Origin: Bacillota bacterium
GTDB lineage: Bacteria > Bacillota > Clostridia > Peptostreptococcales > Anaerovoracaceae
Reading direction: 5' to 3'
Assembly (NCBI GenBank): GCA_017405645.1
Contig: JAFQZZ010000030.1
Location: forward strand, 1-64,000
DNA length: 64,000 nt
Shown piece by piece: positions 1-64,000 of the stretch; position 1 is the first letter of the stretch, and each line of letters starts with the position of its first letter. The position numbers and the translations under genes are program-made. Below the pieces are notes generated by a model that was not told the DNA's origin, did no database searches, and saw nothing but the letters and a program-made list of their open reading frames with translations.

Positions 1-257
1 GTATGTCCCGAAAAGGGAATTGTTATGACAACTCCCCTATGGAGAACTTTTTCGGGATCATGAAACAGGAAATGTATTACGGGCAAGTCTACAGTAGTTT
101 CGATGAGCTCAAAGCTGCGATCGAAAAATACATATGTTATTGCAGCAAGGCATCTCTCGGATACCGAAGTCCGGTCGAGTACCGAAAAACCATGTTAGCT
201 GCATAGAAAAACTCCAGCGATTTCTCGCTGGAGCAAAAGTCTAACTTTTTGGGGTCA
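1..257 (+). mobile_element. Right end of an IS3-family insertion sequence
   Basis: The window opens inside an insertion sequence. It contains the end of a DDE transposase, a short hairpin (about 212-233) and a terminal sequence at 236-257. Read outward on the minus strand, that end begins TGACCCCAAAAAGTTAGAC, the form typical of IS3/IS150-group ends. The left end lies outside the window, so neither the target duplication nor completeness can be judged. Confidence 0.8.
3..206 (+). CDS. IS3-family transposase (OrfB), C-terminal part
   Basis: This is the last 67 or so residues of an IS3-family integrase-type transposase. The gene starts before the window, so the ATG at position 3 is an internal methionine. 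The segment has the family signature around the third catalytic acid of the DDE triad (CYDNSPMENFFGIMKQE, the E after PM). It is followed by the usual tail, in which YRSPVEYR stands in for the common 'R.P.ey' ending. It stops 51 bp before the element end. Function, by family: strand transfer during transposition. The visible part is intact, but activity cannot be judged from a fragment. Confidence 0.85.
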   Translation: MSRKGNCYDNSPMENFFGIMKQEMYYGQVYSSFDELKAAIEKYICYCSKASLGYRSPVEYRKTMLAA

Positions 258-283
258 CCTCAGCAGTTGCAGGGGGTGTTTTT

Positions 284-1168
284 TTATTCTTTCAACAGCC
301 AGTCCCGGATGCCCCGGTACATGCCTTCCGCCAGGGTCTCCCGGTATTCATCCGTGGCCATCTTCGCGTCTTCCTCATCGTTGGAGAGGAAACCCATCTC
401 CACCAGTATCACCGGCACTTCGGACCAGTTGAAGCCCGTCATATCCGTCCGCGCCACGATACCGTGGTCTTCCGCTCCCGTGGCGTCGATCAGGGCGTCG
501 TGGACCGCTTCCGCCGCCGCCCGGCTGGGCTCTATGATGGAGGGCGTACCCAGAAGACTGCCCTCCGGCACCAGCACGGAGATCCCGTGGGTGCTCTTGT
601 TCTCCGAGCCGTCGGCGTGGATCCTGACGCACAGGTCCGCCCCGGCTTCATTGGCGATCTCCGCCCGCTCGATATTGGAGACCGTGGCTTCGTGGGTGGT
701 CCGGGTCATGATCACCGTGGCGCCGTCCGCCTCCAGTTTTTCCTTCAGTATTTCCGCCACCGCCAGGTTCAGCTCCTCCTCGGTCTGGGCGTTTCCGGCG
801 GCGCCGCTGACGTAGGCCGGCTTGGTCTCCGATGATTTGGGCGACACCGGTTCCTGTTTGCTGGCTCCGGCAATGCCGTGGCCCGGGTCCAGGCAGACGA
901 TGAAGCCTTCCATGGAAGCCTTTTTGTCATCTTCCCCGGAGGGGGCGGCCGTGTTTTCCTCATCTGCGGCTTCGTTTTCGATCCCGGCGGTATCGCCGCC
1001 CTCCGGCGCCGGCTCCGCGTCCTCCAGCAAAAATGGATTGTGGCAGGCGCAGCAAAGCAGCACCGCCGCCAGCAAAGCTAAAATCAGGGCCGCTTTCCGC
1101 CCCGTTATTCTCTTCTGAAAGGAGCCCCGGGAAGTTTCCCCGGGGCTTGTGATATTTGTCTGTTTCAC
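284..1168 (-). CDS. N-acetylmuramoyl-L-alanine amidase (Amidase_3), lipoprotein-like
   Basis: A 294-residue zinc amidase that would cut the amide between MurNAc and L-Ala in peptidoglycan outside the membrane. A hydrophobic segment at about residues 26-39 ends in a cysteine-rich LLCCAC stretch, so a lipoprotein anchor is likely. An acidic linker of about 45 residues follows. The Amidase_3 domain begins near residue 88 and carries the expected zinc and catalytic positions: H97 in DPGHG, a glutamate in TEEELNLAV, the histidine in RIHADG, and the glutamate in LVEMGFLSN. The gene lies 18 bp beyond the YARHG-protein stop and is probably co-transcribed with it. Its 3' side is bordered by the insertion sequence. 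Confidence 0.88.
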   Translation of the reverse strand: MKQTNITSPGETSRGSFQKRITGRKAALILALLAAVLLCCACHNPFLLEDAEPAPEGGDTAGIENEAADEENTAAPSGEDDKKASMEGFIVCLDPGHGIAGASKQEPVSPKSSETKPAYVSGAAGNAQTEEELNLAVAEILKEKLEADGATVIMTRTTHEATVSNIERAEIANEAGADLCVRIHADGSENKSTHGISVLVPEGSLLGTPSIIEPSRAAAEAVHDALIDATGAEDHGIVARTDMTGFNWSEVPVILVEMGFLSNDEEDAKMATDEYRETLAEGMYRGIRDWLLKE

Positions 1169-1186
1169 TGTTCCTTTTCTCCTGCT

Positions 1187-1957
1187 CTATTTCCATCCCA
1201 TATCCTGTTCGTACTTGACGATGGTGTCCACATTGGCCCGTTCAATCTTGTTCATCCGCGACAAGGCCACGGACTGGGTACAGGAATTATCCCGCACGTA
1301 CCAGCTCTTGCTTCCGAAATAGTTCTTCCACCGCTGGGTCTGGAAAGCATATCCATGGCGGGCGTAGATCTCGTTCCGGATCGCCGCTACCGTATCGCTG
1401 TCATAGCCGCTCAGGTCCGCCCGGGTGATATACTGGGTGTCCGTAGGCCAGAGATAGCCGCTGGATTTCACGCTGGAGTAATAGGACCCGGAGGCATAGC
1501 CGGTGCCGTAATAATAGTAGTTGTTCACGGTCTGGGGCTGGGATGCCTGCGCCTGCTGCTGAGCCGCCGCATTAGCCTGCTCCTGAGCCACCTGGTCCTG
1601 GATCTGCTGTTCCTGGGCCGTCTGCTGCTCCGCTTTCGCCTTTTCGGCTTCCTGCTTGGCTTTTTCCGCCTCCGCTTCCGCCTGGGCCACCTGGGCCTCC
1701 ATCTGGGCGATCTGGGCCTGCTGCTTGCTGTGGGTCAGGGACGTGAACGCCAGGATCCCCGCCAGCAGCACCAATGCCGCTGCCGCGATGATGGCGATGA
1801 TGACGCCGGTGCTCAGGCCTTTCCTGACCGCCACCGCCGGTTCATCGTATTCTTCATATTCATATTCTTCCGGTTCCGCCTGGGCCAGCGGAACTCCGCA
1901 ATGGGGACAGAACGCCGCTCCGTCCCGGACTTCTTTTCCGCATTTGCTGCAATACAT
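1187..1957 (-). CDS. Zinc-ribbon membrane protein with C-terminal YARHG domain
   Basis: A 256-residue protein of modular build. A zinc ribbon (C3, C6, C17, C20) is followed by an acidic/tyrosine linker and one membrane helix at about 51-73. An Ala/Glu/Gln coiled coil covers about 75-140. The C-terminal YARHG domain (about 168-245) carries the diagnostic Y198-A-R-H-G motif and conserved tryptophans. YARHG domains are predicted extracellular modules, often in surface or peptidase-linked proteins. With the ribbon inside and YARHG outside, this could sense or organise the cell wall, which fits the amidase just downstream. That role is inference from context. Confidence 0.8.
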   Translation of the reverse strand: MYCSKCGKEVRDGAAFCPHCGVPLAQAEPEEYEYEEYDEPAVAVRKGLSTGVIIAIIAAAALVLLAGILAFTSLTHSKQQAQIAQMEAQVAQAEAEAEKAKQEAEKAKAEQQTAQEQQIQDQVAQEQANAAAQQQAQASQPQTVNNYYYYGTGYASGSYYSSVKSSGYLWPTDTQYITRADLSGYDSDTVAAIRNEIYARHGYAFQTQRWKNYFGSKSWYVRDNSCTQSVALSRMNKIERANVDTIVKYEQDMGWK

Positions 1958-2083
1958 GTGTTTTTCCTCCTTCGCCGCCCTGTCTTTGGGGTTTTCTTCT
2001 ACTCTGTTATTATCTCATATTTTTTCTCTTTCTTCCATAAAAAAAAAGAAAAAATACTTCCGCGGCGAAGGAATTGGCCAGCC

Positions 2084-2112
2084 TTGAAAACCGCCGCCCC
2101 GACTTGTATAAT
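2084..2112 (+). promoter_or_regulatory. Sigma-A promoter of the SLH protein gene
   Basis: TTGAAA (2084-2089) and TATAAT (2107-2112) are separated by exactly 17 bp. They lie about 42 bp before the ATG at 2155, which has an AGGAGGTG ribosome site a few bases upstream. Confidence 0.8.
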
Positions 2113-2154
2113 ATAAAAAAATGATAATACCCGACCTTTTTCAGGAGGTGCCTT

Positions 2155-4212
2155 ATGAGAACCATTCCCAAACCATTCCGGTTATTCTTTGTACTGCTGT
2201 TGTCTGTGTTGATGGTGGCGGCGGCGATTCCGCCCCTGACGGTCTTCGCCGATCCCGCCGAATACACTATCCCGGCCGGGCAGACGATAAATCTCAGCAG
2301 TATACCGGACACTGCGGATGTCAAACTCGCCGGCAGCGCCACCATCCGGATCGACTGCACTAAGACCCTGAACAGCATCGAATATGCCGGCAGCAATTAT
2401 AAAACGGATACCCTGACCATCGACCAGATGGGGCCTTCCCGTACGATGCGCGTTTCCGGGGATGTGGTAGTACCCAACCTCACCGTCGATGCAGTCGCCA
2501 CCTCGATCTACTTCGAGCATGACCTCTATGTCCAAAGAAACATCAACGACCATGGCGAAAGCGGTACAGCCCTCTTCAAAAACGGCGAACTCCATATCTG
2601 GGGCGGCGTGTACTTCGGTAAGACAATGAAAGTCACGGCCCCTGTCTACGTCACCGTCGGCGAGGGCATAAACACCTGGTCTACTTCCATCGGCGCCAGT
2701 TATACGCAGACCGGCGGCACCATGCTGATCTACAGGGGCCTGTACGGCGGACATACCGTCGATGTGTCCGGCGGGATCCTTCGGACCGGCAGGAGCAACC
2801 CGGTCAAGGGCAGTTACGGCATCAAGGCCCTCTATTTCCGGATGTCCGGCGGCGAAGTGGAAGCAAAGGGCAGGCAAGTCGGTCTGGATGCCGAGTATGA
2901 CGCGGAAATCACCGGCGGTACGATTACAGCCACCGGGACCGACAACGGCTCTCTCGGTTTTTATGCCCAAAACTACCTGAAACTGAACGGAGGCGATTTC
3001 ACAGCCACCGGAACAGCCGCGGGCTGCACCGTTTCCCGTTACACCGACAGCGCCGGGGAAGCGTTTCAAATCGAAGCTCCCTCGACAGTCGTCGAACCGA
3101 TCGGGACTCAGGTGAAAAAACTGAGTATCGATACCTATTTTGCCTCCGTAACCGATTTCTGGACCTTCACCAATGCGGCGGGCACGGCCCCGGCAAAGAC
3201 CGTGACCTTTGGCGAGGGTTACACCGTGACCTTTGACCTCAACGGCCATGGGTCTGCTACGCCGGCAGCCCAGACCGTGAAACCGGGGGATCATGCGGAA
3301 GCCGTAGCCGACCCCAGTGAAGAGGGCTGGCTCTTCGGCGGCTGGTATTACAACGCCGACTGCACCGGCCACCAGTTCGTGTTCTCCTCCGATACCATTA
3401 CCGGAAACACCACCCTGTACGCCAAGTGGACGAAACAGGCCAGCGCCATCTATACGGTAAGCTATAACACCCAGGGCCACGGCGTCACGCCGGGCAGCTC
3501 CGTGGTGGGAGCCGGGGGCACGGTAACGGAACCGACCCCGCCGACTGCCGGCGGATGGATCTTCGGAGGCTGGTACAAGGATGCTTCCTGCATCGGAACG
3601 CCCTACGATTTCAGCACTCCGGTAAATTCCAGCTTTACCCTGTACGCCAAGTGGAGCCACGACTGTCCTTCCAAGAACTTCACCGACGTTTCGGAAAGCG
3701 ACTGGTTCCACACCTATGTGGATTTTGCTGTGACTTCAAATATCACCAGCGGCACCTCCGCCACCACCTTCAGCCCCAACGACACCTGCACCCGGGCCCA
3801 GACGGTCATGTTCTTGTGGAATTCCCAGGGCAAACCGGAGCCTTCCGCCATATCGTGTCCTTTCAAGGATGTCAAGAAAGGCGACTGGTTCTACAAGGCA
3901 GTGATGTGGGCGGTGGAAAACGGTATCACCAACGGCACCTCCGCCACCACCTTCAGCCCCAATGACACGGTGACCCGGGGCCAGGTGGTCACCTTCCTGT
4001 ACGCCATGAAGGGCAGACCGGCGGTTACCGCCACCAACCCCTTTACGGACGTGAAGCCCGCCGACTGGTTCTATACCCCGGTGCTCTTCGCCGTGAAGAA
4101 CGACATCACCACAGGGGTCACGGCCACCACCTTCTGTCCTTATGACGGATGCACCCGGGCCCAGATCGTCACCTTCATCTACCGGTACATCACCGGGTTC
4201 GCAGCCGGGTGA
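2155..4212 (+). CDS. Surface protein with InlB-type repeats and three SLH domains
   Basis: A 685-residue exported cell-surface protein. It has an N-terminal signal peptide (about residues 1-31, ending near VFADP). A long Gly/Thr-rich region (about 32-350) with repeated GG.. turns suggests a beta-helix or carbohydrate-type repeat fold. Two Listeria-Bacteroides (InlB B-type) repeats follow, each ending in LYAKW. Three SLH domains (about 505-680) have DWF and TRAQ motifs, the usual anchor to pyruvylated secondary cell-wall polymer. It stands alone on the plus strand with its own promoter and a terminator shared with lysS. The ligand is unknown; adhesion is a guess. Confidence 0.85.
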   Translation: MRTIPKPFRLFFVLLLSVLMVAAAIPPLTVFADPAEYTIPAGQTINLSSIPDTADVKLAGSATIRIDCTKTLNSIEYAGSNYKTDTLTIDQMGPSRTMRVSGDVVVPNLTVDAVATSIYFEHDLYVQRNINDHGESGTALFKNGELHIWGGVYFGKTMKVTAPVYVTVGEGINTWSTSIGASYTQTGGTMLIYRGLYGGHTVDVSGGILRTGRSNPVKGSYGIKALYFRMSGGEVEAKGRQVGLDAEYDAEITGGTITATGTDNGSLGFYAQNYLKLNGGDFTATGTAAGCTVSRYTDSAGEAFQIEAPSTVVEPIGTQVKKLSIDTYFASVTDFWTFTNAAGTAPAKTVTFGEGYTVTFDLNGHGSATPAAQTVKPGDHAEAVADPSEEGWLFGGWYYNADCTGHQFVFSSDTITGNTTLYAKWTKQASAIYTVSYNTQGHGVTPGSSVVGAGGTVTEPTPPTAGGWIFGGWYKDASCIGTPYDFSTPVNSSFTLYAKWSHDCPSKNFTDVSESDWFHTYVDFAVTSNITSGTSATTFSPNDTCTRAQTVMFLWNSQGKPEPSAISCPFKDVKKGDWFYKAVMWAVENGITNGTSATTFSPNDTVTRGQVVTFLYAMKGRPAVTATNPFTDVKPADWFYTPVLFAVKNDITTGVTATTFCPYDGCTRAQIVTFIYRYITGFAAG

Positions 4213-54410: not shown

Positions 54411-56357
54411 TCAGCTGGCATTTTCAAGTGTTTCGTTTGATTGCTCTAAGGAGTTTTCTTCTATCTTGTCTTTATATCCTTTTCCCCAGTGATCATACCC
54501 GCCTGTATGACCAGTTCCTACATGATCGTTTTTATTTACTAACTGCATCCACCCTTCTTCTTCACTATGGTGCCACACATATCCATCGAGCTTTCCTTCT
54601 TCTATTATTTTCTTTATCTCTGATTTTTTGAAACGACCTTTTAGTTCCCCTGTTTTTGCCAAGGTCACAAGTTGTTCGTTACAAAAGTCAGTATGATCAC
54701 CTCTGTCTTCATAATACTTTTTTTCGGGCAGTTTTAAATCTATCCTTGACTTAAACTTCGGAGCCGCAACTTTCCAGTGCCTCCCATCGGAATAGATAAC
54801 ATCCTTTTCGATGATTTCAACATTTGTTTTAGGATGAAGCTGCCCCACTAAACTCTGATTTCTTGTCGATATTTTGACAAAATGATCAGCCTGTATCCGC
54901 GCCACTTCCGCTGCAGAATCTGCACCTTTTGCTAAGCTTATACTATCATCTACCAATCTCAGAGTGACTTTCTCAGCTTCTGTAGCCCCCTCAAATATTG
55001 CTTCAAATCTTTTTATGCTTTTTCCAGCTTCTTTTGAATACTTAAGATACTTAACAACACCTATAACCGGAACAAGAGCAATAATATCTGCTCCAAGCTT
55101 CACTTTAAAGTATTCATCTTCACCCCAATGAACAATGTCATGAGAAAAATCCCTAATATCCAACGGTAAATCTATACCGATCAGCGATGCGCCAATTTCT
55201 CCCGCCATTGATAATACTGTAACACTCTCTTCATCATAATCACCCAGGAATAGTTTCTTTCCACTTTTAATAATATATGCTCCAGTCTGATCTGCCTCAT
55301 GCTTAACGTCATATTCCTCAGTATTCCATGCTTTAAGTTTATTTGTTATAAAGGTTATTGTTTTATTTAAGAAAGCAAATAATTGACTTTTACTTTCCCA
55401 CACATATGCAACGATGAAACGCGTTTCATCACAATCATAAGTTCTTTGCACTTCTTCAGCAAGTTCAACCGCCTCATCTATCTTTTCCCTTTCAACGAGA
55501 TCTCTTACTTCCTGTGCCTTGCTTACGACAAAGGCGTTATGGAGTTCTTCCACAGTATCCGCAATAAAAGGATTCTCGGGCTGATTCTTTTGTGCTGTAT
55601 TTAGCGTTTCAAACGATTTCTTAAACTCTCCTCCTTCAAATTCTGATCTTGCCTTTTCGATGATTCGAGCGACCAGCATAAAATCATGTTTCTCGTTTTC
55701 CAGCTTTTCCTTCTGCTTGGTGAATTCGGGACACCTTTTTACTTTCAGATACTCATCTATTTTCTTTTGATAATCTTCGTATTCAGCTCGGCTAGTCGGA
55801 TATGACACTAAAGCTACAAGAATTCCTTCGCACTCTTTACAAAAGGTCTCAACTGCATCGATTTGCGAATAGCTTTTATCTATTTTGACCAGTGTCTTTA
55901 ATGCTTCAAAGTATTCTCCCTTCTGAAAGTAATCCTCTGCTGTGCTATAGAGTTTTTCAGACTCACTCTCAGTAATAATAAAATCAATTTGTTTCTTTGC
56001 CTCTTCAGATAAAAGATAACTGTCTATTTCACTTAGTTCATTCAAGGCGTTCACAGCGTCATCTGTACTGATGCTTTCCTCAGACCAAGATAGTGAAATA
56101 TCTGAGATTACACCTTTGATATCATTATCAAACTCTTCTTTTTTTACCTCATCATCAGCAATGTATTTATTATACGCCGCTACTACTTTCTCATAATCTC
56201 CCGAAGAAAGATACTCTGGGAACATTTCCAGTGAAGTATTGATTTGGTTGATTTCAACATGTGCTATACCCACAATAGCTACTGCGAATATAGCAATTAT
56301 AGTAATCCAGAAAACCTTTTCTACTTTATTTTTCTGCTTCTTCTTATGAATGTTCAA
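54411..56357 (-). CDS. Membrane-anchored polymorphic-toxin-like protein with C-terminal WHH/HNH nuclease
   Basis: A protein of about 648 residues. One membrane helix is at about 14-33. A helical-repeat region (about 40-340) is shared with the 292-residue protein at 49238-50116. A hydrophobic segment follows (about 400-465, IGASLIGIDLPLDIRDFSHD and LIALVPVIGVVKYL-like), typical of pre-toxin linkers. The C-terminal HNH/Endo VII-type domain carries W595-H-H, H612 and GHTGG (about 616-620), with GYDHWG. I prefer the TTG at 56357, which has GTGGAGG eight or nine bases upstream, over an in-frame GTG at 56387. DNA or RNA cleavage is inferred from family. No clear secretion signal or immunity gene. 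Confidence 0.75.
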   Translation of the reverse strand: MNIHKKKQKNKVEKVFWITIIAIFAVAIVGIAHVEINQINTSLEMFPEYLSSGDYEKVVAAYNKYIADDEVKKEEFDNDIKGVISDISLSWSEESISTDDAVNALNELSEIDSYLLSEEAKKQIDFIITESESEKLYSTAEDYFQKGEYFEALKTLVKIDKSYSQIDAVETFCKECEGILVALVSYPTSRAEYEDYQKKIDEYLKVKRCPEFTKQKEKLENEKHDFMLVARIIEKARSEFEGGEFKKSFETLNTAQKNQPENPFIADTVEELHNAFVVSKAQEVRDLVEREKIDEAVELAEEVQRTYDCDETRFIVAYVWESKSQLFAFLNKTITFITNKLKAWNTEEYDVKHEADQTGAYIIKSGKKLFLGDYDEESVTVLSMAGEIGASLIGIDLPLDIRDFSHDIVHWGEDEYFKVKLGADIIALVPVIGVVKYLKYSKEAGKSIKRFEAIFEGATEAEKVTLRLVDDSISLAKGADSAAEVARIQADHFVKISTRNQSLVGQLHPKTNVEIIEKDVIYSDGRHWKVAAPKFKSRIDLKLPEKKYYEDRGDHTDFCNEQLVTLAKTGELKGRFKKSEIKKIIEEGKLDGYVWHHSEEEGWMQLVNKNDHVGTGHTGGYDHWGKGYKDKIEENSLEQSNETLENAS

Positions 56358-56441
56358 TCTGGTTTCCTCCACTAAAAATGATAGCACAGTCCATTATGAT
56401 TCACTTCTGATGCAATCTTTGATTATCAAAAACGACAAGGC

Positions 56442-57137
56442 CTAAATATCCCATTTGATTTGTTCCTGATCATCCGGCTCTAAACGGTTGTTTTTATAAA
56501 AATACGTGAATAACCTTTCGTATGTCGTTTTTCCAATCGACCCAGTCATTGCTATTTCATAAAACCGTCTGTAAGGTCGGCTGTTTTCAAGTGCAGACTT
56601 TTGTTTCGCATTCAGTTTTATTACCTGTGAGATATCATCTACCGTCATAGCCTCGAATGCGTCCAGCATCTGTTTTTCAACGCCTTCCGCAACGGGCACT
56701 TCATCTAAACAGATGTACACATCGATATCGACTTGTCCAAGCATCTTTTCCATTACGGGTTTGACTTCGTTCCAATCCAGATTTCCCTTTCCGCATCCCA
56801 GTTTCGGAAATGCGACTGACGAGAAACCCTGCTGTTTGTATGTCAGCAGAAAGTCTGCCAGTCCCTGCCTGATCCAGGATAATTGAGAGGGATACTTAAA
56901 ATGATACTTGGTTGGAAAGTTCACTATGGTTACACCATCCGGATACTTATAATAATCGACTTTTCCGGTTTCGATTTGTTTTCTCTTACATTTTTCAGCA
57001 TAATCCTCAAACATCTCCGGATATCTGAGCTTGTATTCCAGAGCAATACCACCGCCCATGAATCCAACGCAGTTCACGGTATTTACTAAAGCCTCGGCTC
57101 CTGAATTAAATACGGTCCCTTTATAATAAATGATCAT
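56442..57137 (-). CDS. darG: DarG-like macrodomain antitoxin
   Basis: A 231-residue protein. The macrodomain (about 1-150) is of the DarG (NADAR-distinct, PARG-related) kind: AEALVNTVNCVGFMGGGIAL, FPTKYHF preceded by VN, and SSVAFPKLGCGKGNLDW. In known DarTG systems this domain removes ADP-ribose from thymidine in single-stranded DNA. A C-terminal helical region (about 150-231) is shorter than in many DarG proteins. It lies 30 bp downstream of a DarT-like gene on the same strand and is expected to neutralise it. It begins with AUG after GGTGAAGTGA. Confidence 0.87.
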   Translation of the reverse strand: MIIYYKGTVFNSGAEALVNTVNCVGFMGGGIALEYKLRYPEMFEDYAEKCKRKQIETGKVDYYKYPDGVTIVNFPTKYHFKYPSQLSWIRQGLADFLLTYKQQGFSSVAFPKLGCGKGNLDWNEVKPVMEKMLGQVDIDVYICLDEVPVAEGVEKQMLDAFEAMTVDDISQVIKLNAKQKSALENSRPYRRFYEIAMTGSIGKTTYERLFTYFYKNNRLEPDDQEQIKWDI

Positions 57138-57167: not shown

Positions 57168-58679
57168 TTATCTTTTATAATATAACACACAAGTGTCATT
57201 TAAATAGTATTGCAGTTCAAAGCATGTCTGCTGTTTGGTTAACGGAATATCGTATACTAGCTTTTGGGGTCCGTAAATATCTCCCCTTGGGAATGTCTTC
57301 TTATCCGTTTTTTTGATTTTCCCGGATGGCAACCTAAAAACGATACTCCTATCATATGCAAATGCATTACTATTCTTAAATACAACTTCCAAGTGAAGAT
57401 TGTATCCATTCATACCTTTCTTGTTTAAGGCAATATGATAATACATTAAATAGTTTCTATAGTATTGTTTATCCTCCTCGTCATTGAAGGGAGGACAATC
57501 TGGAAACTTATTTGGATCACATGAAAACAGTGGATTGTCTCCATATAAGTATAATGCATTTTTATACTCCGCTTCCGAACGGAATATGATCTTCCTAATA
57601 AATCCTGCTGATATAAGAAAAGGATACAAAAACTCTGCATTGCGTTGTCTGATTTTCAGAAACCTATCATCTTCCATTCTCAACGGGGTTCTCTCACAAA
57701 TATTATCCCAGTTGAACTGCTCTCGTGCCTCGTTAACATCATTTGTCCATTTCGTATGAGTACTTGCGGCGTTTCCATCTAAAAACCAAACTCCTTTATG
57801 ACTCATTATTACCGGATCAAATAATAGCAACACCGGTATCGGCATATGTGCTATGCCGGGTTCCTCAACTGAATGTATCCCCTGCCACTTGAAAACAGTT
57901 GGTGTATTAGGGAAAAAGTACATTCTAACAAAAGACTTTACTCTCTCCTGTGTATGTGACAAAACCTCAGCATCAGCCGCATTTCGTACCAGTATCCCTT
58001 TTTCCTCAGCAACGTGTCTGGAGTATAATGCCTTATTATCAAAGACATTTCTTAAATTTGAAATATCAGTGTAGTGGCACAACCCCTCGAATCCTTTTTT
58101 CTGAAGATATTTTTCTAATTCCTTGCAGCCGTTTCTTTTCTGTTCTAATTCATGATTCCTCCGTTCAAAATCTTCTCTCCATGATACCCTATGAGTATAT
58201 GATTCTCTTTTCTTTCGTTCTTCCTCTTCTTCTTTTTTCCTTAGTTCCCTGGATCTTCTTTCTTCCTTTCTTTTACGTTCAAGTTCTTCTATTTCCTTTT
58301 GCCTTCTTAGTTTTTCTCTGGCTAGTTTTTCTTCTTCCTCTTTTCGCTGTTTCTCCTTCAGTTCCCTTTCTTTATTTATTAACCTGATTTTTTCCTCTTT
58401 CTCTCTTTCCAGGCGTTTTTCTTCCTCTATATTCCTCCTCACTCTCTCTGTCTGATTCTTTTCAAAAGCGTCCGAGGTGACTTCTTCTTTTGAAAAAAAC
58501 AATTGGACTCCAATGTCCCCATATCGATACTTGGACTCAATTTGATTATCCAGTTTTTTATTGTATCTGACATGGATATGCTTTTCATCGAATCCTATTA
58601 CGGTTGCCTCGATATTATCGATTCTATGATATAACACCATTCCGATTTTTATTCTTGGTTTATCAATGTAAGCTGACAT
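57168..58679 (-). CDS. darT: DarT-like DNA ADP-ribosyltransferase toxin, copy 1, with N-terminal domain and coiled coil
   Basis: A 503-residue protein, about twice the usual DarT length. The C-terminal half carries the DarT/DUF4433 signs: HYTDISNLRNVF (202-213), YFFPNTPTVF (254-263), DGNAAS (301-306), and RNAEF at 346-350 with catalytic glutamate E349. Residues 10-65 form a small beta-rich domain (VLYHRIDNIEATVIGFDEKH), followed by a highly charged coiled coil (about 75-160). Residues 370-503 are a further C-terminal part. By family it attaches ADP-ribose to thymidine in DNA. The gene is coupled to the DarG-like gene downstream. Confidence 0.82.
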   Translation of the reverse strand: MSAYIDKPRIKIGMVLYHRIDNIEATVIGFDEKHIHVRYNKKLDNQIESKYRYGDIGVQLFFSKEEVTSDAFEKNQTERVRRNIEEEKRLEREKEEKIRLINKERELKEKQRKEEEEKLAREKLRRQKEIEELERKRKEERRSRELRKKEEEEERKKRESYTHRVSWREDFERRNHELEQKRNGCKELEKYLQKKGFEGLCHYTDISNLRNVFDNKALYSRHVAEEKGILVRNAADAEVLSHTQERVKSFVRMYFFPNTPTVFKWQGIHSVEEPGIAHMPIPVLLLFDPVIMSHKGVWFLDGNAASTHTKWTNDVNEAREQFNWDNICERTPLRMEDDRFLKIRQRNAEFLYPFLISAGFIRKIIFRSEAEYKNALYLYGDNPLFSCDPNKFPDCPPFNDEEDKQYYRNYLMYYHIALNKKGMNGYNLHLEVVFKNSNAFAYDRSIVFRLPSGKIKKTDKKTFPRGDIYGPQKLVYDIPLTKQQTCFELQYYLNDTCVLYYKR

Positions 58680-58709: not shown

Positions 58710-58775
58710 ATTGACTGTGTTAATTTATGCCTCGGCTCCTGAATCGAATGTAGTTCTCTTATAATGAACAATCAT
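58710..58775 (-). pseudogene. Decayed 5' end of a second darG
   Basis: Minus-strand translation from ATG 58775 reads MIVHYKRTTFDSGAEA, a stop, then INTVN. This lines up with the intact DarG start MIIYYKGTVFNSGAEA, LVNTVN over 22 codons, with 15 or so identities and nucleotide similarity (GCCTCGGCTCCTGAAT shared). The remainder of the gene is missing. It sits between the two darT genes exactly where a darG would be if the locus had been darT-darG twice. Confidence 0.75.
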
Positions 58776-58795: not shown

Positions 58796-60235
58796 TTAGA
58801 ATTGATTCTCTTTTTCTTCTCCGTTATACAACACACGATGATCGTTTAAATAGTATTCCAGTTCTAACTGTTCAATGCATTCCATATATTTATTATCAAT
58901 AGAAAAATCGTATGTTAATGTTGCGTGCCGATCAGAACCCCATCTATAAACAGCCTCTTCTATAGTCTTCTTTTCAATCTTTTCATATATAATCTCTGTC
59001 GGGCTTTTCAAAACTAATCTTTTGTCATATCCTTCAAGATTATTGTTTTCAAACAGCAACTCCAGATGAATAATGCTTTCATTTTCACCATTGCTCACAT
59101 CAAAACTATAATACTTCAGATAGTTGATATAATACTTGTAATCATCCTTTTGATAAAACGGATCACAATTCGGAAACATATAAGGATTACAGGAAAACAA
59201 CTGATTTTTACCAAACAGAAAACATGCATTTAAATATTCTGCTTCCGAACGAAAAACTATTTTTTTGATGTATTCAGTAGAGATTTCATCTGGATAGTGG
59301 AACTCCGCATTCCTGTAATTCCGCTTAATTATACCTTCATCCGGGGGATATCCTCCTCTTTCTTGTATTTGATCCCAATTGAAACTATCCTTAGCCATAT
59401 AACAATCTATAGTACTATAGGAAAACGACGATGCTGCATTTCCTTCATAAAACCGAACGCCCTTATGACTCATTATAACGGGATCAAACACTAATAGTAC
59501 CGGCGCAGGCATATGGGGAATCTTATCTGCTTCAAATGAATGTACTCCCTGCATTCTATAGATAGTTGGGGTATTGGGATAATAATACATCCGCACATAG
59601 GATTTAACCCTACTCCCTGTATGATCTAATACTCCTATATCTGCCGCATCTGTAGTCAGGAGGCCTTTATCTTTTGCAACTATTCGAGAGTATACTTTCC
59701 CTTCTTTTAAAATGCTCTCTAGATTTGCTAAATCAGTATAATGACAAAGTCCCTCAAATGGTCTTGCTGGTTTTCTGCATTCCAATGACAGTAATAGTTC
59801 ATATAACTCTTTCCATCCCTTTTGATTTCTTTGATATGTTTCCTCTTCCCTTTTCAATCTCTCCTGTTCTCTTTTGGCCTGTTCTTCTTCCCAGGCTTTC
59901 GCTTGTGCCTCTCTTATTGCTCTTTCTTCCGCCTCTTGTCTTTTTCTTTTTTTTGCATTCTCCCTCTTATTTTCCTCTGCTTCTATTCTAGCCCTAGCAC
60001 TTTTCGTCAGATTATTCTCATATACATCCGATTTTGCTTCTTCTTTTGTGAAAAACAATTGAACACCAATGTCTTGATAACGATACTTGGTTTCTGTTTG
60101 ATCATACCATTTCTTGTTGTATCTGACATGAATATGTTCTTCATCAAATCCGATCACAGTCGCCTCAATGTCATCAAGTCTATGATACAAAACTGTTCCA
60201 ATTTCTATTCTTGATCTATCAATGATTTCTGGCAT
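58796..60235 (-). CDS. darT: DarT-like DNA ADP-ribosyltransferase toxin, copy 2, with N-terminal domain and coiled coil
   Basis: A 479-residue homologue of copy 1. The N-terminal domain is nearly the same (TVLYHRLDDIEATVIGFDEE, VRYNKKWYDQTE), followed by an Arg/Glu-rich coiled coil (about 75-140). The ART core has HYTDLANLESIL (165-176), YYYPNTPTIY (217-226), EGNAAS (264-269) and RNAEF (308-312; E311). The aspartate of DGNAAS is E here. The C-terminal region is related but diverged. Its matching darG has decayed, so the remaining DarG probably covers both toxins. It begins at ATG with GGGGAG upstream. Confidence 0.82.
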   Translation of the reverse strand: MPEIIDRSRIEIGTVLYHRLDDIEATVIGFDEEHIHVRYNKKWYDQTETKYRYQDIGVQLFFTKEEAKSDVYENNLTKSARARIEAEENKRENAKKRKRQEAEERAIREAQAKAWEEEQAKREQERLKREEETYQRNQKGWKELYELLLSLECRKPARPFEGLCHYTDLANLESILKEGKVYSRIVAKDKGLLTTDAADIGVLDHTGSRVKSYVRMYYYPNTPTIYRMQGVHSFEADKIPHMPAPVLLVFDPVIMSHKGVRFYEGNAASSFSYSTIDCYMAKDSFNWDQIQERGGYPPDEGIIKRNYRNAEFHYPDEISTEYIKKIVFRSEAEYLNACFLFGKNQLFSCNPYMFPNCDPFYQKDDYKYYINYLKYYSFDVSNGENESIIHLELLFENNNLEGYDKRLVLKSPTEIIYEKIEKKTIEEAVYRWGSDRHATLTYDFSIDNKYMECIEQLELEYYLNDHRVLYNGEEKENQF

Positions 60236-60296
60236 AAGAATCTCCCCTATTGTTCAATTCAACCGTGTCATTAGTGACGACTCATTAACTCCCAAA

Positions 60297-60980
60297 TTAA
60301 TAGTTCTCTAAATAAACAATCATATCATCTGTAACCATTCTCGGATTTACTCCACCAATCATTACCAAAAGTCCATTATACTTGATGATTGTCTCATTAT
60401 TGTATTTGAACATACTGGTTGGTTTTACATTCACTAAATCAAACTCAGGAGTATAATAAAACCGCACATTTCCATTACCCGCCAGATCCATGCTGAACCT
60501 TCCAATCCATATCCCCGAGTATTCCATATAGTAATCATAATATCTGTCCAATTTAATCAAAGAAACCAGTTTATCGCTATCCGACCAGCAAACACTATAC
60601 CCAAATGCCTCAGCGACCGCTCTGATCGGTAGATATGTCCGTCCTTGTTTGATCACAGCATTCGTATCAATATTCTTGTTTTTCCCATTGATTGTAATGA
60701 CCCTCTTGTCAATCGGTACCTTAACAATTGTGTACCCGTTAGTAACTGCCGCCTCTCTCTTTTCGCCATCCCAGGTAACTGTTAACCCGCAGGCTTCCAT
60801 AGAAGCACGAAGCGGCACCATCGTCCGGTTATTGCCATCGATATACGGCCGTGCATCCGTCCAGTTTACGAAAGTACCGTTCACCGTCACATCCGGATTT
60901 GTCGCCGCGAATCCCGGAATAGTGAAGCATCCCATTAACACAAAAGTGCATATCAATGTGACCAGAATTCTTTTAGTCAT
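60297..60980 (-). CDS. Secreted copper-amine-oxidase-N-like stalk-domain protein
   Basis: A 227-residue secreted protein. A signal peptide (about 1-26, ending GFAATNPD) is followed by a stalk domain (about 28-150) with NNRTMVPLRASMEACG and GRTYLPIRAVAEAFGYSV. A short C-terminal region covers about 150-227. It is the same domain type as the protein at 43.6-44.5 kb, but with base composition matching this AT-rich island. It stands between the darT genes and the DUF2075 operon and has no evident defence role. Confidence 0.82.
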   Translation of the reverse strand: MTKRILVTLICTFVLMGCFTIPGFAATNPDVTVNGTFVNWTDARPYIDGNNRTMVPLRASMEACGLTVTWDGEKREAAVTNGYTIVKVPIDKRVITINGKNKNIDTNAVIKQGRTYLPIRAVAEAFGYSVCWSDSDKLVSLIKLDRYYDYYMEYSGIWIGRFSMDLAGNGNVRFYYTPEFDLVNVKPTSMFKYNNETIIKYNGLLVMIGGVNPRMVTDDMIVYLENY

Positions 60981-61049: not shown

Positions 61050-62777
61050 CTATACCACCTCAAAAAACCTTTCAAAATACTTCCTCAACTCATCATCACA
61101 AACGTAAATGTAAGTCCCCTTGATTCCCCTCGTCATGAGAGTGAGGTAAATATTTGTCAGGTAGCTGCACAGGGCTTCCGGGTCGTCTGCCACACCGGCT
61201 TTTCCCTGTTGATCGTAGTAGTTTTCCTTTACTGCGTAAATCTTCTCGGACATCGGGTCATACTTGATGTCCTCACCAATAATTACACCCGTGTAGTTCA
61301 GGTCATAACCCTGCACGGTATGGATACATCCGATTTCATCGATTGCCGTTGGCGACTGAATCCAGTTATCATAGGTTCTATTCCACCGGTACCGCTCCCC
61401 TTGAATCCCAATTGTGAACGGTTCGGGATTACTCCTGTTCCATGTCCAGGCGTATCCGGCAACCACCCGGCACAGCCGCATTTCATTATCCAATCGCTTA
61501 ATTTCTTTTATCATGTCCGCACAATTGCGGAATAGCTTCACATCATAATTCTTAACATTGACCTTGTATTCCTGTCTGCCGGAGAGAATCCGTCGAAGAT
61601 AATTGACATACTCCTTGCCACCTTCGCACCTCCACTGGGTTTCGAGCTGGGAATGTATCACACTTCCAGGATACTGTTTCTCCGTAATTCTGGTGAAATC
61701 CTCACTATCAATGTCGCAAGGCCGCACTGTCTGCAAGTCGTCCCGGAACAAGATGACGTTTTTACTGCACATCATCATCCAGTCCAGTTCCGTTCCCTTG
61801 AATTTGTCCAATCCCAAGTCCCTGTTGCACTTATCAAAAGAACTGTAATTGGCAAGATGGCCTTTGTTCCGGCATTTCAACCTGTGTGATTCGTCTACTA
61901 GAAGCAAGTCAAAGGCTTTGCCTGTCTTCATATAATCCTTTACGACCTCGTTGGGACTATAGACCATTTTCTTGCTCAGATTCCGGACCCCTTTAAACAC
62001 GTTCTGAATCGACGACCGAAGCGACTTTTGCGGAAATACAATCCCAATCTTTTGAATGTCCTTTAACTCCTTCCGGTCAAACTCCTCTACCAGTATTTCG
62101 CTTCCATCTTCCTGAATCAGGGCATAATCCGTCCTGGACACAGCCTCCAAATCAGCAAAGTATTTCATCAGATAAATGGCCAGGATCGTTTTACCGGTTC
62201 CTGCGCCTCCGTTAACAATCACTATGCTTCTTTTTCCGCTCCTGTGATTCTGAATCAACGCATCGATGATTTGCATCTCTACTTCCAGCTGCTCTTCACC
62301 AAGGGTCTTGAACGGAGAATACTTATACAACTCCGAGTTTTCAATCTCTTTGACCGTTTTCTGAACGACTCCCAATCGCTTCAGTTCTTCCCAGATTGCT
62401 TCAAACTCCTTTCTGTATTTCGAACGTTGATAGTATTCATGATCCTGCAACCCGTCATTTCCGTTCTGAAGATTATACTTACCATCTGCATGAATATGCC
62501 TGATCAGAAAAGCTTCCAAATCCAGAATCACCGACTTGTTGAATTCTTCATCACTGATAATCCGGATCTCCGTGAGTTTTTTCCGATCTTCGTTTTTAAG
62601 GTGCTGGGAAGCTCTTTGGGAAGCATGGATGGTTTCCCCAACGTAAGCCTCTTTGCTGTTGTTGATGATATAGGCGACCGGCCAGTTGGTGCCGACCGAA
62701 CTCTCCCCGTAATGGAGTTCGCTGATCTTATTGGGCGTATCATCATTAAAAGCAAAACGATCAATCCTAAACATCAT
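61050..62777 (-). CDS. GIY-YIG nuclease fused to a DUF2075 (SF1-helicase-like) ATPase
   Basis: A 575-residue protein. The N-terminal GIY-YIG domain (about 33-110) keeps AYI...AYVGET, R55, E88 and an Asn in YNLQNGND. The ATPase domain has Walker A NGGAGTGKT (189-197), Walker B-like DESHR (295-299), QGYDLNYTGVIIGEDI and a late RGIKGTYIYV segment. The DUF2075 core occurs in Schlafen-like and anti-phage proteins; a nuclease plus motor suggests DNA degradation on infection, which is inference. It overlaps the upstream MazG-like gene by 4 bp. Confidence 0.82.
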   Translation of the reverse strand: MMFRIDRFAFNDDTPNKISELHYGESSVGTNWPVAYIINNSKEAYVGETIHASQRASQHLKNEDRKKLTEIRIISDEEFNKSVILDLEAFLIRHIHADGKYNLQNGNDGLQDHEYYQRSKYRKEFEAIWEELKRLGVVQKTVKEIENSELYKYSPFKTLGEEQLEVEMQIIDALIQNHRSGKRSIVIVNGGAGTGKTILAIYLMKYFADLEAVSRTDYALIQEDGSEILVEEFDRKELKDIQKIGIVFPQKSLRSSIQNVFKGVRNLSKKMVYSPNEVVKDYMKTGKAFDLLLVDESHRLKCRNKGHLANYSSFDKCNRDLGLDKFKGTELDWMMMCSKNVILFRDDLQTVRPCDIDSEDFTRITEKQYPGSVIHSQLETQWRCEGGKEYVNYLRRILSGRQEYKVNVKNYDVKLFRNCADMIKEIKRLDNEMRLCRVVAGYAWTWNRSNPEPFTIGIQGERYRWNRTYDNWIQSPTAIDEIGCIHTVQGYDLNYTGVIIGEDIKYDPMSEKIYAVKENYYDQQGKAGVADDPEALCSYLTNIYLTLMTRGIKGTYIYVCDDELRKYFERFFEVV

Positions 62778-63144: not shown

Positions 63145-63975
63145 ATTAGGGATCCATACTGATTTACACTACTCTCAAACATGGTTTCCGCAATTCAGCA
63201 AGTCGCACTTGGTTTGAGATCCATACTGATTTACACTACTCTCAAACGGCATGATTGATGGACTTGACGATCCAAAAGTTTGAGATCCATACTGATTTAC
63301 ACTACTCTCAAACCAGAGCGCCCTGCATCGTGTAGTCCAGCTGCGTTTGAGATCCATACTGATTTACACTACTCTCAAACTAACATAAGGCGATGCAAGT
63401 CACCCTTTTCGTTTGAGATCCATACTGATTTACACTACTCTCAAACAGTGATCTTGGCCTGTCTTCCAGTATCGGTGTTTGAGATCCATACTGATTTACA
63501 CTACTCTCAAACTTTGATGATCGTGCTAACATCCTGCACCAGGTTTGAGATCCATACTGATTTACACTACTCTCAAACGCCGTTCCTTTGGTTTGTAGAA
63601 TGGGCAAGGTTTGAGATCCATACTGATTTACACTACTCTCAAACGAAAGAGGTACAAAAGGTGCTGGGTGCCGAGTTTGAGATCCATACTGATTTACACT
63701 ACTCTCAAACTCTTCGGCTTGCTCATATCGTACCGGGATAAGTTTGAGATCCATACTGATTTACACTACTCTCAAACTGTGCCGTGCCATCGATATAAAG
63801 CCGTGTAGTTTGAGATCCATACTGATTTACACTACTCTCAAACTATGCTGTACCACCGATATAAAGCCGTGTTGTTTGAGATCCATACTGATTTACACTA
63901 CTCTCAAACGATTCTGTTCACAGCATAGGCAAAGTCCATGTTTGAGATCCATACTGATTTACACTACTCTCAAAC
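63145..63975 (-). CRISPR. CRISPR array, type II-like repeats, continuing past the window
   Basis: Thirteen 36-bp repeats (twelve well conserved, one degenerate at 63145-63180) and twelve 30- to 31-bp spacers. Repeats start at 63145, 63212, 63278, 63345, 63411, 63477, 63543, 63609, 63675, 63742, 63808, 63874 and 63940. On the minus strand the repeat begins GTTTGAGAGTAGTGTAA and ends CTCAAAC, the look of type II-A/II-C repeats. The degenerate copy at the low-coordinate end marks the leader-distal end. The leader, cas genes and tracrRNA must therefore be beyond 64000. 63976-64000 is a partial thirteenth spacer or leader. Confidence 0.95.
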
Positions 63976-64000
63976 CCTGGTCAGGTTAAGCGTAGCATTC

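Follow-up and report, generated by a model that had tools for sequence, protein, structure and literature searches.

The closest described relatives of the locus reported here belong to DarTG, a well-known kind of anti-phage system. In the DarT2-macrodomain systems of Thermus aquaticus and M. tuberculosis, darT is followed directly by a macrodomain darG (PMC5179494). The Thermus DarG macrodomain neutralises DarT on its own and requires its catalytic lysine to do so (PMC5179494), while the Thermus toxin depends on R51 and E160 (PMC9967889). Toxicity of DarT, its neutralisation by DarG and ADP-ribosylation of thymidine are among the properties that define a DarTG system. DarTG1, in which DarT1 is paired with a NADAR protein (PMC11543638), likewise combines a DNA ADP-ribosyltransferase toxin with a hydrolase antitoxin.

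The locus and its relation to described systems

The stretch of DNA that was analysed, referred to here as the window, comprises bases 1-64000 of a 129.6-kb contig from a draft genome of 1.43 Mb. It contains a DarT2-type DarTG locus with an unusual composition, two toxins and one antitoxin. Read along the minus strand, the order is darT_B, a remnant of a second darG, darT_A and an intact darG, with an uncertain further element ahead of darT_B:

60246..60323, minus strand: upstream of darT_B, a stretch that may be a third darG head in more advanced decay, from its score against the relic (uncertain)
58796..60235, minus strand: darT_B, 479 aa, with the architecture of darT_A (Pfam DarT, E=1e-24)
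58710..58775, minus strand: relic of a second darG (codons 1-22), from its match to the head of the intact darG and to 18 other DarG heads
57168..58679, minus strand: darT_A, 503 aa (Pfam DarT, E=2e-23)
56442..57137, minus strand: intact darG, 231 aa, with a macrodomain (residues 1-146) and a helical C-terminal tail of about 70 aa (PADLOC DarG, Pfam Macro, AF2 model)

A macrodomain DarG thus lies directly downstream of darT_A, the arrangement that marks a DarTG system. What sets the locus apart from the described DarT2 systems is the presence of two darT genes for one complete darG, a departure from the usual, if not strictly defining, pairing of one antitoxin with each toxin, and the darG remnant between the toxins. 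Its toxins also carry an N-terminal beta domain, a coiled coil and a C-terminal beta-sandwich, and its DarG is only 231 aa long, with a short helical tail. A DarT search of the genome itself returned darT_A and darT_B only.

Both toxins score above the Pfam cut-off for the DarT domain (PF14487) and, judging by their reading frames, both are intact: they are full-length, open over 503 and 479 codons, and 47% identical. In a tree of 24 DarTs the two are sisters (support 100/99) on branches of 0.69 and 0.68, and their N-terminal domains are about 70% identical. The stretches in which they are least alike, with nucleotide identities of 0.43-0.53, include the part just before the catalytic glutamate (A 314-351). 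As in the described DarT2 toxins, an arginine and a glutamate are invariant, R252 and E349 of DarT_A in 20 DarTs and R215 and E311 of DarT_B in 17; the glutamate falls in an RNAEF motif, and the arginine presumably corresponds to Thermus R51. In an AF2 model of DarT_A (pLDDT 85), a small N-terminal beta domain is followed by a long coiled coil, the DarT ADP-ribosyltransferase domain (197-393) and the C-terminal beta-sandwich. A sequence search of the PDB gave no usable DarT match. By structure, the modelled DarT domain is closer to DarT2 (Z 19.4 against Thermus DarT, 7omv) than to DarT1 (Z 15.9 against E. coli DarT1, 8baq), and the antitoxin is a macrodomain rather than a NADAR protein, both in contrast to DarTG1. 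The N-terminal beta domain of about 65 aa was also seen in four other loci (L013, L014, L015 and L019), and in most of the clostridial clade TPT replaces the methionine (PM) of other DarTs.

The intact DarG matches the PADLOC DarG model over residues 1-144 (E=1.2e-55) as well as Pfam Macro. N22 and the lysine of the NFPTK motif are invariant in 19 DarGs, again as in the described macrodomain antitoxins, and in an AF2 model (pLDDT 92) the macrodomain matches the T. aquaticus DarG structure 5m3e with Z 25.9 over 146 residues. Against the full-length DarG model NCBIfam NF048014 it scores 179 bits where the cut-off is 250, and the match ends at position 184 of 338, leaving the C-terminal DarT-binding region unmatched; neither DarT nor DarG reaches its curated NCBIfam cut-off at this locus. 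A length of 231 aa is usual for the clade, in which most ORFs have 223-253 aa. The modelled tail is a short helical bundle, a part that the fold comparison barely covered. A helix-hairpin-helix identity is only hinted at, by matches in 2 of 19 members (best E=6e-4).

A darG remnant between the two toxin genes

The minus strand from 58775 to 58710 translates as MIVHYKRTTFDSGAEA*INTVN, followed by TAG. The intact DarG begins MIIYYKGTVFNSGAEALVNTVN (MIIYYKGTVFNSGAEALVNTVNC). The first-pass annotation had aligned these 22 codons with the DarG start, and the alignment is borne out: without a gap, the relic and the start of darG (57137-57072) are identical at 47 of 66 bases and 15 of 22 residues, well above random expectation, the second-best ungapped 66-mer on either strand of the 64-kb window reaching 33 of 66. 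The local score of the pair was attained in none of 5000 dinucleotide shuffles, and in nhmmer searches of the 129.6-kb contig, on which chance levels were measured, the relic and darG found each other with E = 4e-5 and 7e-5. A comparison independent of the genome's own darG gave the same result: against the darG starts of 18 other organisms the relic had a summed score of 218, compared with 151 +/- 10 for shuffled sequences (0 of 1000 shuffles). Identity between the relic and darG ends abruptly past codon 22, the next 36 bases giving 4/18 and 6/18. These comparisons give good support to the identification of the stretch as what is left of a second darG.

The single stop noted in the first-pass annotation lies at codon 17; to it must be added a second in-frame stop, the TAG at codon 23 (58709-58707), and with these two stops the relic is dead as an antitoxin. 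Homology combined with such disabling changes is what characterizes a pseudogene of darG, and the relic shows both. Upstream of its start the intact darG carries GGTGAAG as a ribosome-binding site; a clear site of this kind is lacking ahead of the relic. From the darT_B stop to the relic ATG is 20 bp, and from the darT_A stop to the ATG of the intact darG 30 bp; in relatives, darG mostly starts at the darT stop or overlaps it.

The relic and darG share a perfect 16-bp direct repeat, ATTCAGGAGCCGAGGC, at 57086-57101 and 58724-58739, which flanks darT_A. An identical run of this length has P = 0.035 given 47/66 identity. Recombination between the repeats would delete darT_A and place darG behind darT_B.

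Divergence of the relic from darG

The differences between the relic and darG number 6, 2 and 11 at the first, second and third codon positions (Fisher p = 0.010), with 36 of the 44 first and second positions unchanged. Where the two have the same residue they use the same codon in 6 of 15 cases (0.40, compared with 0.46 expected from codon usage alone), and the corresponding fraction for darT_A and darT_B is 0.525, compared with 0.473 expected. Since these values are near expectation, synonymous sites appear to be close to saturation in both gene pairs. Of 25 first- and second-position sites that do not vary among 17 DarGs, 6 are changed in the relic, a moderate decay with K = 0.29 (0.08-0.57); had it been non-coding since the darT genes split (0.8-1.0 neutral substitutions per site), 12-14 changes would be expected (P = 0.009 to 0.0015). 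The relic has changed at Y4, G7, V9, N11 and V18, residues that are invariant or nearly so across DarGs.

The third-position bias and the near-saturated synonymous sites together suggest that, for a large part of its existence, the relic probably encoded protein and was under protein-level selection. A second darG that was once complete is therefore more likely than a copy already truncated when it arose. It is quite likely that the copy functioned as a darG through much of the period after the darT split and was lost later, with the qualification that the codon-position and decay tests rest on 22 codons (66 nt) and could be misled by gene conversion.

A possible third darG head

The stretch from 60323 to 60246, which was spotted post hoc, scores 21 against the relic where the background maximum over 5758 contig windows is 15, and its match to the relic was equalled in 2 of 5000 shuffles; the likeness takes the form ATGATTGTTTATT..AGAGAACTA. 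It starts 88 nt before darT_B, and the relic 96 nt before darT_A. No match was obtained between this stretch and the DarG heads of other organisms (p = 0.41), nhmmer did not find it on the contig, and no trace of another darT turned up upstream of it. It is possibly a third, more decayed darG head, which would complicate the history of the locus. The start of the stretch coincides with the last codons (MIVYLENY) of an ORF at 60297-60980, for which the family yielded no useful homologue against which to check the C-terminus.

Related loci in other genomes

An initial search of genome contigs with the two DarTs gave no relatives. Searching them with a DarG alignment yielded 80 DarG loci, nearly all of which are single darT-darG pairs. 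The first-pass annotation had looked to relatives for an intact locus with two full pairs, and this expectation failed: neither darT-darT-darG nor two tandem pairs occurred in any of the 80 loci or in 20 other DarT-bearing genomes, a result equally compatible with rarity, loss and true absence. In a sample of the phylum (398 genomes) DarT was present in 21, and the genome studied here was the only one with two separate DarTs; the double DarT entry of another genome (G1255) is a single gene split in two. Viral contigs, plasmids and phages held no relatives of either DarT, and viral contigs none of DarG. We also considered whether a darG-head-like stretch before darT is a general feature of the family and rejected this, as it was seen in none of 15 relatives.

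Among the single pairs, those of the clostridial loci L013, L014 (Mogibacterium MAG) and L015 are among the closest known to the present locus, with DarG ORFs of 239-253 aa that are 57-59% identical and a similar N-terminal domain in DarT, but each has one darT, one darG and no relic. Two darT genes near one darG were also seen on a Dokdonia MAG contig (L056), where darT genes at 125-478 (plus strand) and 1309-2265 (minus strand) surround a darG at 493-1170 (plus strand). There, in contrast to the present locus, the second darT is downstream of darG on the opposite, convergent strand, and the contig is short, with the first darT incomplete near its end. Other layouts include, in cyanobacteria (L055, L057, L062, L067, L075, L076, L083 and L086), DarT domains that form part of ORFs of about 1840-1970 aa lying immediately upstream of darG, and, in an Acholeplasmatales MAG (L035:1889-5107, plus strand), a fusion of part of a DarT domain with a DEAD-box helicase, encoded downstream of darG.

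Origin of the two-toxin, one-antitoxin arrangement

We propose that an ancestor carried two macrodomain-type (DarT2) darT-darG pairs in tandem, darT_B-darG1-darT_A-darG2. An internal deletion would have removed darG1 except for its first 22 codons, which now contain stops and lack a clear ribosome-binding site, and would have brought darT_A's own start region up behind the relic. Both toxins would have stayed intact, with the remaining DarG presumably guarding against both. The homology of the relic, its position, its stops and the intact toxins and antitoxin are read directly from the sequence; we infer the deletion and the double protection, and give this history as a whole a probability of about two in three. 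The sequence 3' to the relic resembles neither the end of darG nor the darT_B leader.

A variant of this proposal, with the same end state, differs only in the origin of the two pairs: two related DarTG systems would have been acquired separately and come to lie side by side by insertion, one darG then being lost. The modest identity of the toxins (47%) and their long branches are in keeping with such an origin; their position as closest relatives in the sample, together with the close similarity of their N-terminal domains, makes it unlikely, if still a serious contender.

It is somewhat less likely that a second darG was never complete, a single tandem duplication ending 66 nt inside darG having produced the relic. 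One event would then yield darT-darG'-darT-darG directly, and the lack of any relative with two full pairs agrees with it. However, the relic's divergence is biased to third positions, with synonymous sites near saturation and residues conserved, and the decay expected of a sequence non-coding since the darT split is about twice that observed. A duplication junction should also leave the sequence after the relic resembling the darT_B leader, which it does not (6, compared with 5.5 by chance). The ancestral darT-darG-darT-darG order put forward in the first-pass annotation is therefore upheld in part: two formerly complete pairs are the better of these two histories, with the codon-position pattern and the synonymous sites in their favour and the missing two-pair relative weighing the other way.

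That the relic has been retained because it still serves a purpose, such as encoding a short leader peptide or forming an RNA element that tunes darT_A expression, appears improbable. Its position directly before darT_A would suit such a role, as would the weaker similar stretch at a comparable distance before darT_B. Against this, the relic contains a stop and has lost near-invariant DarG residues, none of the 15 relatives has a counterpart before darT, and the relic showed neither a promoter-like nor a terminator-like site on the minus strand. Chance resemblance, to which a short stretch picked by eye is prone, is refuted by the shuffles, the contig search and the agreement of the 18 outside DarGs, as well as by a position and frame expected for darG.

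Presumed protection by a single DarG

Loss of an antitoxin gene beside an intact toxin is expected to be harmful unless another antitoxin provides cover. Because the DarG macrodomain strips ADP-ribose from the DNA base regardless of which DarT placed it there, one DarG presumably protects the cell against both toxins, as the first-pass annotation had suggested; a lesion-repairing antitoxin should serve any DarT that makes the same lesion. The bacterium probably relies on its one remaining antitoxin against two toxins. A distant further antitoxin may be present in the genome, the draft of which has an estimated completeness of 86%, and a short DarG tail that binds only one of the DarTs might make protection unequal.

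More tentatively, the locus may be a two-toxin, one-antitoxin operon in which a single lesion-repairing DarG counters two DarTs with different ssDNA target motifs. On such a reading, loss of one antitoxin would have been tolerated because the antitoxin targets the DNA lesion and no specific toxin. With a relic lying between two intact toxins, the locus offers a direct test of cross-protection by an enzyme-type antitoxin, and would show how lesion-repairing antitoxins let toxin repertoires expand without matching antitoxins.

Neighbouring genes

The DarTG locus lies in a defence neighbourhood that includes a Schlafen-type helicase (61050-62777), a MazG-like gene and a CRISPR array. Adjoining darG, at 54411-56387 on the minus strand, is a gene for a 658-aa protein with a C-terminal Colicin-DNase/WHH nuclease domain. 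At least 34 exact 36-bp repeats make up the CRISPR array, which spans 63212-64000 and runs on past the window into the following 1.4 kb of the contig. The ORFs that follow it resemble, by eye, Csn2, Cas1 and Cas9 (1336 aa), as in type II-A.
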